Part shown: one piece after another, positions 3,564 to 27,197 of the stretch
Layout of the letters: each line of letters opens with the position of its first letter
Numbering within the stretch: position 1 is the first letter of the stretch
Source of the DNA: a virus
Direction: 5' to 3' (one strand)
IMG/VR virus record: IMGVR_UViG_3300035665_000199
Span: 1 to 27,197 of that record
DNA: 27,197 nt
Notes under the pieces: model-generated
What the model was told of the DNA's origin: nothing
The model's input: only the letters and a program-made list of their open reading frames with translations
Databases searched by the model: none
Program-made: the position numbers and the translations under genes

Positions 3564-3591
3564 TTGCATTCAACATTTTGTTATATATTTG
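3564..3591 (+). promoter_or_regulatory. Bacteroidota-type promoter with operator-like inverted repeat
   Basis: TTG at 3564-3566, a 17-nt spacer and TATATTTG at 3584-3591 match the Bacteroidota -33/-7 pattern (TTG and TAnnTTTG). An imperfect inverted repeat at 3558-3579 (TGTTG-CATT-CAACA core, flanked by AAA/TTT) covers the -33 box and could bind a regulator. The first downstream gene starts at 3622, leaving a leader of about 25 nt. Confidence 0.7.
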
Positions 3592-6126: not shown

Positions 6127-7667
6127 TCGACCAAGTAAAAGCAAACCGCGCGGTCAATTTCATTGAACGCATTTGCACCCACGTCAAAGGCGACCTCGCG
6201 AACCAGCCGTTTATTTTAGAACAATGGCAACGCGACTACATTTCGCAGTTGTTCGGAACCATGGGGCCGGGCGGATTGCGCCAGTACCGAACCTCGTTCG
6301 TTTTCCTACCGCGTAAAAATGGCAAATCGAATTTGATTGCCGCGATCGGGTTGTATCTATTATTCGCCGACAACGAACCCGGTGCGGAAATCTACGTCGC
6401 CGCCGCCGACCGCGAACAAGCGAACGCAATCTTTGAGGTTCAAAAACAAATGGTTCTGAACTCGGCGTTCCTTCGTGGCAAATGCAAAATATATCGAAAT
6501 TCAATCACGCTGAACGGAACCAACTCGTTCATTAAGGCGATCAGCGCGGACGCATCGACAAAGCACGGATTCAGCGCACACGCGGTATTGTACGACGAAC
6601 TGCATTCGGCGCCCAACCGCGAGTTGTGGGAGGTTTTGACGACCTCGGTGGGCGCCCGTTCACAACCTTTGGTTTTGGGAATCAGTACGGCGGGAATCGA
6701 CCGCGGCGGTTTGTGTCGTGAATTATATGAGTACGGCAAACGCGTTTTGACTGGCGCGATTGACGACCGAACATTCTTGCCCGTAATTTACGAGGCACCG
6801 CTCGACGCCGATCCGTTCGACCCGAAGACGTGGTTGATTGCAAACCCGAACCTCGGCGTTTCCGTTCGAATGGAATACTTCGAAAAAATGTCGGCCGAGG
6901 CAAAGATTTTGCCGACGTCTGAAATCGCGTTCAAACAATTACACCTAAACCAATGGATTTCGTCGTTCGATGGTTGGTTGACGGACACCGATTGGTGCGC
7001 GTCCGCTGGCGTCGTTGACCTCGACGAACTGCGCGGCCGAACGTGCTTCGGCGGTTTGGACTTGGCCGCCGTGTCCGACGTTTGCGCCTTTGTCTTGGTA
7101 TTCCCGATGGATGATGGCGAAATGAAGGTTGTTTCGAAATTCTTTGTTTCGAACGCCGCGGTCGAACAACGACGCGGCCGCGTGGGGGCGTCGTACGATG
7201 CGTTTGTTTCGGTCGGTGAGTTAATCGTGACCGACGGGAACTCAACGGATTACAACGTGATATTTGAAGTAATGCTTGAAATGTCAAAGGTGTTCGATAT
7301 TAAGTCCGTGGCCTTTGACCGATGGAACTCGTCGGCATTGGTTCAACGACTGGTCGAGGCCGGTTTCGACATGGATCCGTTCGGCCAAGGGTTCGCGTCA
7401 ATGACCCAGCCGATTCGTGAAATGGAAATTATGATTAAGAAAAAAACACTTCACCACGGCGGCAACTCGATGCTTCGGTACATGGTTTCGAACGTGCAAA
7501 CAAAGTTTGACGAGGCTATGAACGTCAAGTTCGTGAAAAATAAGTCGGCCGATAAGATCGACGGCGTGGTCGCGCTGGCGATGGCAATCGGTGAATATAT
7601 GACCGCGACGCGTGGCTCGAATGACGACCGCTCGGTTTACGAACAAACGGGAATCCGCTACCTATGA
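6123..7667 (+). CDS. terL: Terminase large subunit
   Basis: A 514-aa packaging motor of the HK97/Terminase_1 type. The ATPase domain has Walker A RKNGKS (64-69), Walker B VLYDE (155-159, D158 E159) and the coupling motif GISTAG (186-191). The C-terminal RNase H-like nuclease has candidate acidic residues D313 (GGLDLA), D400 (AFDRW) and D480 (KIDGV). It pumps DNA into the prohead and cuts the concatemer. It is coupled by ATGA overlaps to terS upstream and a small gene downstream. All key residues appear present. Confidence 0.95.
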   Translation: MIDQVKANRAVNFIERICTHVKGDLANQPFILEQWQRDYISQLFGTMGPGGLRQYRTSFVFLPRKNGKSNLIAAIGLYLLFADNEPGAEIYVAAADREQANAIFEVQKQMVLNSAFLRGKCKIYRNSITLNGTNSFIKAISADASTKHGFSAHAVLYDELHSAPNRELWEVLTTSVGARSQPLVLGISTAGIDRGGLCRELYEYGKRVLTGAIDDRTFLPVIYEAPLDADPFDPKTWLIANPNLGVSVRMEYFEKMSAEAKILPTSEIAFKQLHLNQWISSFDGWLTDTDWCASAGVVDLDELRGRTCFGGLDLAAVSDVCAFVLVFPMDDGEMKVVSKFFVSNAAVEQRRGRVGASYDAFVSVGELIVTDGNSTDYNVIFEVMLEMSKVFDIKSVAFDRWNSSALVQRLVEAGFDMDPFGQGFASMTQPIREMEIMIKKKTLHHGGNSMLRYMVSNVQTKFDEAMNVKFVKNKSADKIDGVVALAMAIGEYMTATRGSNDDRSVYEQTGIRYL

Positions 7668-7894
7668 AAAACACAATTAACACGGCGCAAGTGTTTCAAA
7701 ACCAATGCGCCACGCTCGATTCCTTCAACCAATTATTCAATGTTTACATTGCCGAGGGAAATCAAAAAATCGCTGCCTATGAATCGTGCGAAATAATGCA
7801 CGTTTCAATGTACGGGCGGCGACGTTTTCAATCTTATCAATCGTTTCAAAATTCATTAAATCATGCAAAACGAAACCTCACAAATCAACGATAA
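7664..7894 (+). CDS. Small hypothetical protein after terL
   Basis: A 76-aa protein starting at ATGA overlap 7664. It is rich in Asn and Gln with a Tyr/Phe/Ser-rich stretch (RRRFQSYQSFQ). There are no TM segments or known motifs. Its end overlaps the start of the next gene by 32 nt. Function is not recognised. Confidence 0.55.
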   Translation: MKNTINTAQVFQNQCATLDSFNQLFNVYIAEGNQKIAAYESCEIMHVSMYGRRRFQSYQSFQNSLNHAKRNLTNQR

Positions 7895-8141
7895 AATTTC
7901 CGAAATCATTGAGAAACTCGAAGATTTGGTTTTGGCAAAAAATACGACCTACGGCAATTCGCTACAAAACCCGGTTCGGGTGTTTTCACGCGCCACGTCG
8001 GTTGAATCCATTTGCGCCCGCATCGACGATAAGTTGTCGCGCATTTCAGCGGTCGGCGTTAACGACGATACCATCGACACCATTTATGATTTGATGGGGT
8101 ATTATGTGCATTTGTTGATCGCGCTGGAGCGTGAAAATTGA
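7863..8141 (+). CDS. DUF1599/Nmad1-like small protein
   Basis: A 92-aa helical protein. KNTTYGNSLQ near residues 26-35, RIDDKLSRI near 54-62 and DTIYDLMGYYVHLL near 72-85 resemble DUF1599 / nucleotide-modification-associated domain 1 proteins, whose folds relate to MazG-like nucleotide hydrolases. A nucleotide-handling role is only suggested. It sits between terL and the portal, which is unusual for metabolism. Its TGA ends at the first base of the 136-bp repeat. Confidence 0.6.
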   Translation: MQNETSQINDKISEIIEKLEDLVLAKNTTYGNSLQNPVRVFSRATSVESICARIDDKLSRISAVGVNDDTIDTIYDLMGYYVHLLIALEREN

Positions 8142-8276
8142 CGTTGTTCAAAAGTTTCTTTGTATTTATTTGGTTTATATTGATGCGCCGTGTATTTTAT
8201 TTATTTATATATATATCCCTACGGGATATATATATAAATAAATAAAATCAACAACGCGTGTCAATAAGTTTTGCGG
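8141..8276 (+). repeat. 136-bp dispersed repeat with perfect 26-bp hairpin, copy A
   Basis: This copy matches 23535-23670 over 136 bases with 5 mismatches and no indels. A perfect stem runs 8194-8219 against 8223-8248 with loop TAC; the arms are ATTTTATTTATTT, then alternating AT, then CCC/GGG. The wider inverted repeat extends imperfectly to TATTGA (8178) and TCAATA (8266). The 90-bp core 8178-8267 is identical in both copies. Upstream, TTG (8144) and TTTATTTG (8165-8172), 18 nt apart, resemble a promoter that would start transcription at about the hairpin's 5' edge. A promoter with a 5'-UTR hairpin, an origin or a recombination site are all possible. Confidence 0.9.
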
Positions 8277-8333
8277 GAACATCCACGCATGGTTTGGAAA
8301 ACTATTCGTATTTTTGAGGGGGATATACCTACT

Positions 8334-9539
8334 ATGGCCGAAACGAAACCAACCTTTGCCGCCCGCGTGATCGGATTATTCCGCGCCTCACCGAACAACC
8401 CTTCAACCTCGTTGGCCAAACCCGCGGAATGGTTATTCTCGGACGACCGCTCAAAGACCGGCGTTGCGGTGAACGAAAAATCCGCCATGACGTTTTCGGC
8501 GGTTTGGGCATCGGTTCGTATTTTATCGGAAACCATCGCCTCACTACCTTGGAACGTTTACACCAGCGAAGACGAATCGCCAATGGTTGTGCCAAGTCAC
8601 CCGATCACGAAAGTACTGCGCCGACCAAACGCGATGATGACGTCAATGATTTTCCGCGAAACGATGATGGCGAACCTCGCCCTTCACGGCAACGCGTTTG
8701 CATTCATTGAGCGCGACGGCGCGGCCCGTGTGACGCAAATGATTCCCGTTCACCCGTTGCGCGTTGAAATCAAAGTCGTACAAAACGAAAAGTTTTATCA
8801 TGTTGACAAAAAAGAAGTTTACTCGGATTTTGAAATGATCCACGTTTGCGGATTGTCATTCGATGGGGTGATGGGCATTTCGCCGATTAAGGCCGCCCGC
8901 GAAACATTCGGAATCGGTTTGGCGGCCAACCAGTTCGGCGCTCAATTCTTTGGCAACGGCGCAAACGTCGGCGGCGTATTAACGCACCCCGGACGTTTGT
9001 CGGACGAGGCATATACACGAATCAAAAATTCGTGGGCGAATTCATACGGCGGTTTGGGCAACGCACACAAGACCGCGATTCTTGAAGAAGGCATGAAAAT
9101 CGAGCGCATGACGATTCCGCCCGACCAAGCGCAGTTCTTGCAAACCCGCGTTTTTCAAGTTGAAGAAGTCGCCCGCTGGTTTCTTATTCCGCCGCATATG
9201 ATCGGCGACCTTAAAAATTCCGCGACCCGTGCAAACGTCGAAGAACAAGGAATCCAATTCGTGCGAAACACGATCCGTCCGTACGCCGTGCGCTGGGAAG
9301 AAGAATTCACGCTCAAATTGTTTGGTTCGGAATCCGCATTTTTTGTTCAATTCAACCTCGAAGGTTTACTTCGCGGCGACATAAAGTCACGATACGACGC
9401 CTATGCGGTCGGTCGTCAATGGGGTTGGTTGTCGGTGAACGACATTCGCAAAAAAGAACAACTGCCCGACGTCGACGGCGGCGACATTTATTTGCAGCCA
9501 TTGAACATGGTGAACGCCGGTCAAGACGAAAGCATTTAA
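8334..9539 (+). CDS. Portal protein, HK97 family
   Basis: A 401-aa protein from ATG 8334. Near residue 50 it has AMTFSAVWASVRILSE followed by IASLPW, the signature N-terminus of HK97-type portals. RDGAARVTQ, the FDGVMGISPI loop and the stretch YLQPLNMV at the C-terminus complete the family pattern. It forms the dodecameric DNA gateway of the head. The open frame extends upstream to ATG 8289 and TTG 8271, the latter inside the repeat; 8334 gives the usual family N-terminus and has a purine-rich AGGGGG 11 nt upstream. The protease gene follows after 4 nt. Confidence 0.93.
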   Translation: MAETKPTFAARVIGLFRASPNNPSTSLAKPAEWLFSDDRSKTGVAVNEKSAMTFSAVWASVRILSETIASLPWNVYTSEDESPMVVPSHPITKVLRRPNAMMTSMIFRETMMANLALHGNAFAFIERDGAARVTQMIPVHPLRVEIKVVQNEKFYHVDKKEVYSDFEMIHVCGLSFDGVMGISPIKAARETFGIGLAANQFGAQFFGNGANVGGVLTHPGRLSDEAYTRIKNSWANSYGGLGNAHKTAILEEGMKIERMTIPPDQAQFLQTRVFQVEEVARWFLIPPHMIGDLKNSATRANVEEQGIQFVRNTIRPYAVRWEEEFTLKLFGSESAFFVQFNLEGLLRGDIKSRYDAYAVGRQWGWLSVNDIRKKEQLPDVDGGDIYLQPLNMVNAGQDESI

Positions 9540-22627: not shown

Positions 22628-23044
22628 ATGCGTAAACTTACCCGAATCATTTTGCATTGCACCGCGACGCCCGAAGGCCGTCACGTTGACGTCGCAACCA
22701 TTAACGCGTGGCACGTCAAACGCGGTTGGTCGGGAATCGGCTACCATTTCGTTATTTATCTTGACGGATCCGTTCACGCTGGCCGCGACGTTTCAAAGGT
22801 CGGCGCACACGTCGCCGGGCATAACGCCGATACAATCGGTATCGTTTACGTCGGCGGCTGCGATGCGGCAATGAAGGCAAAGGACACGTTGAACGCGGCA
22901 CAAGAAACCGCGGTCGTCAATTTGGTTAAGGCACTTCGCGACCAGTTCGGGGCGTTGACGCTGCATGGTCATAACGAATACGCCGCAAAGGCGTGTCCGT
23001 CATTCAAAGTAAAAGACAAATTCAAATGGCTCGTTGGCTACTAA
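22628..23044 (+). CDS. Endolysin: N-acetylmuramoyl-L-alanine amidase, T7 lysozyme type
   Basis: A 138-aa Amidase_2 protein. Zinc ligands H10 (ILHCTAT), H115 and C123 (HNEYAAKACPSF), with Y39 and K121, keep the same spacing as H17, Y46, H122, K128 and C130 of T7 lysozyme. It cuts the amide bond between MurNAc and the stem peptide. There is no signal peptide, so it needs a holin for release. ATG 22628 gives the normal T7-like N-terminus; GTG 22622 is an alternative. Its end overlaps the lipoprotein gene by 19 nt. Confidence 0.93.
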   Translation: MRKLTRIILHCTATPEGRHVDVATINAWHVKRGWSGIGYHFVIYLDGSVHAGRDVSKVGAHVAGHNADTIGIVYVGGCDAAMKAKDTLNAAQETAVVNLVKALRDQFGALTLHGHNEYAAKACPSFKVKDKFKWLVGY

Positions 23045-23454
23045 TTCCCGCGGTCGCCTTGATGGCGTCGTGTACTGCATCGTATCACCTAAAACGTGCG
23101 ATTGCAAAAGACCCTTCAATTCTCAAAACGGCTGCGGTTCGGTTCGACACAATCGTCGTGACGAAGGAGCGAAAATTGACCGACACAATCGTCATGAACA
23201 AACGCGATACGATAACGATTGAACGCGACCGCGTACGGGTGCGTTTGGTGCGTTCTTACGATACTTTGATGGTCGAGGGTACTTGCCTACCCGACACGAT
23301 AAAAATCGACGTCATACGCGAAATTCCGCAACTCGTTCAAAGGCGGTCATTCTTTACCAAGGGCGACCGCGTGTTCGGTTGGTTGCTATTCGTGGCGCTC
23401 GTTGTCGGGGTCGTGTTATATATCGGCCAACGAAACGGCAATCGCTGGTATTGA
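23026..23454 (+). CDS. Candidate unimolecular spanin (lipoprotein plus C-terminal TM)
   Basis: A 142-aa protein. The N-terminus is a lipoprotein signal (MARWLLIPAVALMASC) with lipidated Cys16. The middle is charged and strand- or coil-rich (DTIVVTKERKLTDTIV). A C-terminal TM segment follows (VFGWLLFVALVVGVVLYIG, near 118-136) with a basic tail. Outer-membrane lipid anchor plus inner-membrane TM in one chain is the u-spanin layout (as in phage T1 gp11), which fuses the membranes at the last step of lysis. It overlaps the endolysin gene, which supports the role. The start at 23026 was chosen because it gives the signal peptide. Confidence 0.75.
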   Translation: MARWLLIPAVALMASCTASYHLKRAIAKDPSILKTAAVRFDTIVVTKERKLTDTIVMNKRDTITIERDRVRVRLVRSYDTLMVEGTCLPDTIKIDVIREIPQLVQRRSFFTKGDRVFGWLLFVALVVGVVLYIGQRNGNRWY

Positions 23455-23534
23455 TTTCCCCGACCAAGTTGGTTCGGTCAATCTAAAACTTTAATTTATT
23501 GGGTCGCGCGTCAAAGCAAACGTTGACGTTTTTC

Positions 23535-23670
23535 ACGTTGTTCAAAAGTTTATTTGTATTTATTTGGTTACTATTGATGCGCCGTGTATTTTATTTATTT
23601 ATATATATATCCCTACGGGATATATATATAAATAAATAAAATCAACAACGCGTGTCAATAACTTTTGAGG
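23535..23670 (+). repeat. 136-bp dispersed repeat with perfect 26-bp hairpin, copy B
   Basis: Second copy of 8141-8276. The perfect hairpin stem is 23588-23613 against 23617-23642. Unlike copy A, the outermost ends here also pair (TCAAAAGTT at 23542 and AACTTTTGA at 23668). Before it, 23455-23534 has a weak hairpin (CCGACCA/TGGTTCGG, 23460-23477) and no gene. Copy B precedes the promoter of the 23723 gene and closes the lysis cassette. Confidence 0.9.
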
Positions 23671-23672
23671 CA

Positions 23673-23702
23673 TTGAATCATTGGTTAAGTTTTGTATATT
23701 TG
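23673..23702 (+). promoter_or_regulatory. Bacteroidota-type promoter
   Basis: TTG at 23673-23675, 19-nt spacer, TATATTTG at 23695-23702: an exact TAnnTTTG match with correct spacing. It lies 3 nt after repeat copy B and about 20 nt before ATG 23723. Confidence 0.8.
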
Positions 23703-25863: not shown

Positions 25864-26102
25864 ACCGCGTGTCTGAATTTTTAGAACGCGCCCGCACGCT
25901 GGCCGATCGTTGGGAATCCGACGACATGGTTTCGTTGTGCAACGATATTGAAATAATGGTCGCATTTTGCGAAATGAATCTACCGAACTATGCCCTCACC
26001 CACTACATTAGCGGAACTCCGCCAGTTCGCAAAGATTCACAACCAAGCGAGATACCCCAACGTTCCGACGTCGGCATTGCCGGCGACAACGTTCACCGAT
26101 AA
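25839..26102 (+). CDS. Small helical protein overlapping VRR-NUC gene
   Basis: An 87-aa frame from ATG 25839 (inside the end of the nuclease gene) to TAA 26100-26102. The first 50 residues are a clear helical unit (VEQRLNRVSEFLERARTLAD, then MVAFCEMNL). The last 38 residues are encoded in the same DNA as the VRR-NUC start and look low-complexity and polar. The N-terminal part fills the gap between two well-supported genes. Function is unknown. Confidence 0.55.
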   Translation: MVDVEQRLNRVSEFLERARTLADRWESDDMVSLCNDIEIMVAFCEMNLPNYALTHYISGTPPVRKDSQPSEIPQRSDVGIAGDNVHR

Positions 26103-26421
26103 AACGGCAAACGGACTTACCAATGCGATCATATACGACATCATGCACGTTTGCGGGGGCGCTGCTTACCGAATCAACAACGGGGCAACTTACGACCGCG
26201 CAAAGAACATATATCGTGCGGGCGTCACGAAACGCGGCGTCCCCGATATTATTGCCGTCGTGGATGGGCGATTCATCGGAATCGAGGTAAAGATCGGAGC
26301 CGACCGCCAGTCGTCGCATCAACGCGAGGTCGAGGCGGAAATCAACGCCGCTCGCGGGGTTTACTTTATCGCGAAAACGTACGAGCAATATGTCAGTTCC
26401 CTCGCCGCATCGCTTCGATAA
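25990..26421 (+). CDS. VRR-NUC nuclease, variant copy
   Basis: A 143-aa variant of the gene at 15-446. Active-site residues D86, E99 and K101 are unchanged. Differences include F49Y, I52M and a cluster near the C-terminus (residues 120-122 and 132-141). The reading frame is intact, so both alleles look functional. It is most likely the same locus in another strain. Confidence 0.85.
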   Translation: MPSPTTLAELRQFAKIHNQARYPNVPTSALPATTFTDKTANGLTNAIIYDIMHVCGGAAYRINNGATYDRAKNIYRAGVTKRGVPDIIAVVDGRFIGIEVKIGADRQSSHQREVEAEINAARGVYFIAKTYEQYVSSLAASLR

Positions 26422-26800
26422 GCAGCGCGGCGAATGGGCTGAAGCGCAGTTCGTGGCGGACGCGTTGAAAAATGGTTTTGAAATCTTCACGCCCATTGGC
26501 GATTGTTCGTCAATAGATTTCGTAATTTTTCACGATGGTAAACCGATACGAATTCAATGCAAGGCAACGTGGACGAACCTAAAGGGCAAATCCAAGTGGA
26601 ACATCGGTAAAGGGTCGTCGGCGAAGAAACGCTACACGGATCACGACGTGGATTTTTTGGCGCTTTACGATGGAAACATTGAGTGTTGGCGGTTTGTCCG
26701 GCCAAGTGAAACAAACGGACAAAAAACATTTAGGATAGCACAAGACGAAACAAACAAACTGGAAAATTGGCATGACCTCAAAGAATTCAACGATCATTGA
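26390..26800 (+). CDS. PD-(D/E)XK endonuclease-like protein, variant copy
   Basis: A 136-aa variant of the gene at 415-825. The core with D43 and QCK is identical. Changes lie in the N-terminal dozen residues (P7H, S9F, H12Q) and one near the C-terminus (RIPQD to RIAQD). The frame is intact. Confidence 0.75.
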   Translation: MSVPSPHRFDKQRGEWAEAQFVADALKNGFEIFTPIGDCSSIDFVIFHDGKPIRIQCKATWTNLKGKSKWNIGKGSSAKKRYTDHDVDFLALYDGNIECWRFVRPSETNGQKTFRIAQDETNKLENWHDLKEFNDH

Positions 26801-27197
26801 TTTAGCACGGCGCTACCTCGCCGCCGGGTTCTCACCCATACCATTGGTTCCGGGCGATAAGCGCCCAAGCGTAAAGGGGTGGCAACGCTACGGCGACGAG
26901 CCTATGGGTTGGGGCGAGGCCGACCGAATGTTTGCCGACACGGATTCCATCGGTATCGTTTGCGGTTACGACGGCCTCGAGGTTCTCGACATCGACGCCA
27001 AGCACTTCGACGGCGACGAATTAACCGAGTTCACCACGTTACTGGACGCCGAAGCGCCGGGCCTTCGCTCGAAAATGACCATTCAACAAACGCGGTCGGG
27101 CGGTGAACATTGGATTTACAAATGCGATTCGGTCGAAGGCAATCAAAAGTTGGCGCGGAATATAGAAGGCGAAACGACGTTTGAAACACGCGGCGTC
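26772..27197 (+). CDS. Primase-polymerase, variant copy cut by window end
   Basis: The first 142 residues of a variant of the gene at 797-2773. The prim-pol motifs VLDID, SGGEHW and FETRGV are all present. A few conservative changes occur (for example E42D, K52R, N85T), while most base differences are silent. It is truncated only by the window edge. Confidence 0.85.
   Translation, partial: MTSKNSTIIDLARRYLAAGFSPIPLVPGDKRPSVKGWQRYGDEPMGWGEADRMFADTDSIGIVCGYDGLEVLDIDAKHFDGDELTEFTTLLDAEAPGLRSKMTIQQTRSGGEHWIYKCDSVEGNQKLARNIEGETTFETRGV

Follow-up and report, generated by a model that had tools for sequence, protein, structure and literature searches.

The virus record analysed here (IMG/VR, 27,197 bases; hereafter the window) carries a hairpin element in two copies, one at each operon boundary, established by its structure, its conservation at the same two places among related phages, the two-sided changes in its stem, its strand bias and an arm polarity incompatible with termination. 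We tentatively favour, at a little short of an even chance, the reading that this conserved plus-strand element marks both operon boundaries and acts in RNA as a boundary or processing signal. To judge from sequence comparison, the element is a structured and so far unnamed one, conserved across a large family of uncultured phages that probably infect Bacteroidota.

The repeat pair and its setting

Two copies of a 136-bp repeat lie on the plus strand at 8141-8276 and 23535-23670 and share 131 bases, their 5 differences all falling outside the hairpin, just as an earlier note on this DNA had counted; the alignment extends to 139 bases (8138-8276 vs. 23532-23670, 96% identical). Copy 1 begins at the stop codon of the last small gene downstream of terL (7863-8141) and ends ahead of the portal gene (ATG near 8334). 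Copy 2 comes after an amidase gene and a spanin-like gene (22993-23454) and before the early genes, with a small membrane-like protein and a Gp2.5-like protein encoded downstream. The two copies flank the portal-to-lysis block, and the bracketing of structural and lysis genes described in the note is confirmed, one copy marking the portal border and the other the lysis/early border.

The hairpin of copy 1 (8178-8266, plus strand) consists of an 11-bp lower stem, an internal loop, a 26-bp upper stem and an apical loop, and that of copy 2 (23572-23660, plus strand) is identical to it in sequence. In copy 1 the upper stem pairs perfectly (8194-8219 with 8223-8248) around the loop TAC (8220-8222), the lower stem (8178-8188 with 8256-8266) as RNA contains two G-U pairs, and the internal loop is asymmetric (CGTGT opposite CAACAAC). 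The predicted minimum free energy for RNA 8141-8290 is -51 kcal/mol (z = -6.9), a stability that 0 of 200 shuffles equalled, and the next longest perfect stem in the window has 8 bp, vs. 26 bp here. Longest stems did not exceed 16 in 2000 trials of a first-order Markov control with the element's own composition, and reached 12 in 20 trials of a whole-window Markov control. Within the window there were no further copies.

Every assigned gene of the record lies on the plus strand. A circular genome of about 25,975 bp is probable, because the first 1222 bases (1-1222) recur at the end of the record (25976-27197) with 95% identity, 58 substitutions and no gaps; these differences fall mostly at third codon positions of the first two genes, and the contig probably overruns one turn of the circle into another strain. 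The phage encodes a Prim-Pol/AAA protein as well as the Gp2.5-like protein, a weak match to that class of single-strand binding protein. Two features make a phage of Bacteroidota likely: its TAnnTTTG-type promoters, and its primase-polymerase, for which the nearest relatives among the matches listed are in Cellulophaga phages (Flavobacterium and Arthrobacter phages also matched). The TerL family had no relative in the bacterial genome contigs searched, so we do not name a host.

Conservation at two borders

Searches with TerL and early genes returned many viral contigs (IMG/VR), and throughout the window's clade the contigs that extend to the portal or the lysis/early border were found to have the element there; a search of related phages was a check that the note had proposed. 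The note had regarded a single copy as the mark of an assembly artefact; exactly two copies occur in at least 8 contigs including the window, 6 of which, again including the window, belong to the window's clade. Single-copy contigs lack the other region: L038 and L044 were checked, and are no counter-examples because they do not contain the portal border. A MITE or other mobile repeat, also raised in the note, was rejected, the element being always at the same two syntenic places, without scatter and without copies in genome or phage collections. That is, neither the element pattern in host (bacterial) genomes, where the note had proposed looking, nor a DNA search of the phage collection gave a match. 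The repeat is real, neither an assembly artefact nor a mobile element. An attC-like or dif-like site was likewise rejected, with no recombinase among the proteins searched and no motif fit. A search of viral contigs for the exact stem was empty because the stem sequence varies, and Rfam yielded no family at gathering score, only sub-threshold chance matches, mostly to miRNA.

Beyond the window's clade the place and plan of the hairpin recur. In a more distant clade (TerL 80%) the portal border is occupied by a hairpin built on this plan from different sequence; its counterpart at the lysis/early border was seen in L046, a contig that shares its source metagenome with L027 of that clade. Among members of a wider family (TerL 57-64%), T-rich/A-rich hairpins are often seen after terL, frequently two in tandem, and are followed by a TAnnTTTA/G promoter; two of the longer contigs of this family have a second copy (82-83% identity), and in G002, one of these, its neighbours are a spanin-like gene on one side and a relative of the window's Gp2.5-like protein on the other, which is the setting of copy 2. 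Sequence is almost wholly different in the distant clade and in the wider family (here at 62-64% TerL identity), while the lower stem, the internal loop and the T-rich/A-rich upper arm recur.

Other hairpins were observed in these relatives. At the same junction after terL, phages with 69% TerL identity have a hairpin of unrelated sequence, GAGGTATGTAT...ATACATACCTC in L029 and weaker in L028. Just upstream of the boundary hairpin, the wider family has an extra hairpin with the conserved apex CTATATATAG (after terL in L085, L090, L096, L100, L107, L110 and L121-L125; second copy in L153), and ahead of it there is often a terminator-like combination of a short inverted repeat and a T-run (TTAACA...TGTTAA, CTAACAG...CTGTTAG, TTCACAAG...CTTGTGAA), which likewise covaries. 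Many wider-family phages share a strong CCACTTCCGCAAAGGTGCGGAGGTGG-type hairpin inside apparent coding sequence, at offsets from the terL end of +4528 (L090), +4422 (L092), +4533 (L104), +4542 (L110), +4982 (L124) and +4970 (L125).

Compensated stems and strand bias

The window's clade comprises 17 distinct elements, whose A/T upper stems pair perfectly over 22, 24 or 26 bp. Wherever elements of the same length are compared, upper-stem changes are two-sided and never one-sided, which are the compensatory changes for which the note had recommended looking. For seven 86-nt elements 100% of cells pair, and covariation is 0.103 vs. 0.025 for shuffled columns, with 0 of 500 shuffles as high and the signal vanishing when columns are slid by 1-3; pairing was counted on the gap-free set A3, alignment A1 putting gaps wrongly in the stem. 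The stems of the window's own two copies are identical while their orthologues differ, which indicates that these copies were probably homogenised recently. The note had offered selection on the core or its conversion as alternatives; both apply, the core being conserved across phages as well.

Loops differ between some elements by reverse-complement flips (TAC/GTA, TAAA/TTTA). These flips, with perfect arms lacking one-sided states, show that copying or inversion of DNA acts on the palindrome as well; the upper stem alone therefore cannot prove selection on RNA, and part of the covariation may be mutational. A functionless palindrome, mutationally self-maintained and kept perfect by DNA template switching, would produce just such loop inversions and two-sided changes in the window's clade, and inversions of this sort are known at plastid hairpins. 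We nonetheless judge it very improbable, given that the same two places are held across deep divergence and that the conserved asymmetric internal loop and conserved mismatches of the wider family do not resemble the outcome of template correction.

The lower stem and internal loop are better witnesses than the upper stem for selection on RNA. The lower stem changes its sequence between clades, and between the copies of one genome, with pairing retained: compensation is seen in TATTGATGCGC/GCGTGTCAATA and TCGGGATGTGT/ACGCGTCCCGA, and one genome has TTTGTC/GACAAA in one copy and ATCTGC/GCAGAT in the other. Its wobbles are U-G or G-U on the plus strand, and the 3' side of the internal loop is usually the longer. 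For each of the 18 representatives folded, which are related sequences and not 18 independent events, the plus strand gave the more stable structure, in several cases by <1 kcal/mol. Over all hairpins outside the terminator class, G-T mismatches exceed A-C modestly (15 vs. 5), and the terminator class has no such bias.

This variation also bears on an operator reading, in which the conserved flanks, TATTGATGCG...CGCGTGTCAATA, would form the two half-sites bound by a phage regulator that acts on the early and late promoters within about 10-80 bp 3' of the hairpins. Within the window's clade the flanks are nearly invariant, as an operator might be; they vary, with pairing retained, from one copy to the other of a single genome and also in the distant clade and the wide one, and an operator would not require a perfect palindrome of 20 bp whose sequence is variable, all of which leaves this reading improbable.

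In nearly all elements the 5' arm is T-rich and the 3' arm A-rich, with GC at the apex. An intrinsic terminator was rejected, this polarity being opposite to a terminator's on either strand: the A-rich 3' arm is followed by CAACAACG and not by a U-tract, and the T-rich arm precedes the hairpin. A terminator scan of 7600-8600 found none.

Neighbouring promoters and candidate roles

The Bacteroidota promoter consensus was taken from PMC9723704 and PMC7366714, that of sigma-A being TTG-N17-21-TAnnTTTG (PMC7366714). The predicted promoter just 3' of hairpin 2 (TTG-N19-TATATTTG, 23673-23702, plus strand) agrees with it fully, while 3' of hairpin 1 only a -7 box does (TATTTTTG, a TAnnTTTG, 8309-8316, plus strand), with a poor -33. 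TAnnTTTG-like boxes also stand 3' of hairpins in relatives. A third strong promoter of the window (TTG-N17-TAnnTTTG, 3564-3591) is without a hairpin and precedes a small early-block gene; no consensus promoter was found on the minus strand of the window.

The note had placed a promoter at the hairpin edge. The pair in question, TTG-N18-TTTATTTG, is present (8144-8172, plus strand, with a matching pair in copy 2) and keeps its spacing in many copies. As a promoter it fares less well: its -7 part departs from TAnnTTTG, lacking the TA, and relatives with short flanks are missing 10 bp that include this box (portal copies L015-L018 and L036, lysis copy L040). The distant clade has no such -7 box in the short gap between a predicted terminator and the hairpin.

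The position of promoters matters for a comparison with phage HK022, in which each of two operons has one of the similar structured RNAs putL and putR; these are about 70 nt long with two stem-loops in tandem, share sequence, are 3' of their promoters and bind the zinc-binding domain of RNA polymerase (PMC9378689). By analogy, RNA from the start of both operons would here bind RNA polymerase and cause read-through of terminators. The paired copies, one per operon, the tandem hairpins of the wider family and the conserved upstream TTG-N18-TTTATTTG pair would all suit such an antitermination leader. The upstream box is non-consensus in many copies and absent from others. The better promoters, however, including the consensus promoter of copy 2, are 3' of the hairpin, so that the main transcripts would exclude it; nor is sequence conserved family-wide here, as it is between putL and putR. 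We consider a put-like leader fairly improbable.

In several relatives the order is predicted terminator, hairpin, consensus promoter, which would put the hairpin outside the predicted main transcripts. That is, the hairpin may lie in poorly transcribed DNA, and this order leaves room for a DNA role: the plus strand as single-stranded DNA hairpin, or a cruciform, would aid the start or restart of replication, for example as a priming site for the primase-polymerase, and would be at operon borders merely because few non-coding places exist. Both copies have the same orientation, the stems in the window's clade are A/T-rich, loops have been inverted at the DNA level, and the phage has its own Prim-Pol/AAA and single-strand binding proteins. 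We still think a replication element unlikely, though worth serious consideration. A cruciform would be hard to extrude with a GC-rich apex; RNA accounts more naturally for the G-T pairs and the strand bias; a T-then-A polarity that avoids termination would be irrelevant at a site never transcribed; and cumulative GC skew, with a maximum near copy 2, shows no turn at copy 1. Phage single-strand and replication-origin hairpins are strand-specific with conserved mismatches, as is the element here, but no initiator, nick site or origin signal was found.

The operon-boundary reading has a close likeness in the RNase III signals of T7 (R1.1 and others), hairpins of about 60-90 nt between phage genes with two helices parted by an asymmetric internal loop, of 4/5 nt in R1.1 (PMC6121014). 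The element here shares this architecture and its intergenic position, cleavage being putative. T7 differs in being a lytic podovirus of Escherichia, and its sites are not arranged as a constant two copies at the borders of operons. Another likeness is to REP/BIME-type elements, which stabilise 3' ends as stable hairpins that follow a stop codon and have no U-tract; the element here has these features too, at two fixed places, whereas REP elements are many and dispersed.

Under the boundary reading, transcripts passing between gene blocks would fold at the boundary into a very stable hairpin unable to terminate transcription in either direction. The non-terminating polarity, G-U pairs, apical GC clamp and strand bias are what suggest that it forms in read-through RNA. 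The hairpin would fix where the upstream message stops and where the downstream one begins, whether because an RNase III-type enzyme cuts close to the asymmetric internal loop or because exonucleases are blocked, and the separate downstream promoter would restart transcription. We infer the hairpin's transcription, its cleavage or protection, and any protein partner.

A bolder claim, which we regard as doubtful but plausible enough to state, is that these elements form a new class of regulatory RNA in phages: hairpins that do not terminate, are specific to one strand and are duplicated at the two operon borders throughout a large Bacteroidota phage family, with shape kept and sequence free, recognised by host or phage machinery through structure alone, and partitioning a one-strand circular transcriptome. 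The element offers a simple case of structure kept without sequence, together with the caution that perfect covariation in A/T palindromes can be partly attributable to DNA template switching. The hairpin would serve as a marker delimiting operons in many uncultured genomes. On the boundary reading, the element would be a family-wide signal of transcript punctuation, and gene regulation in the phages of this phylum has hardly been studied.
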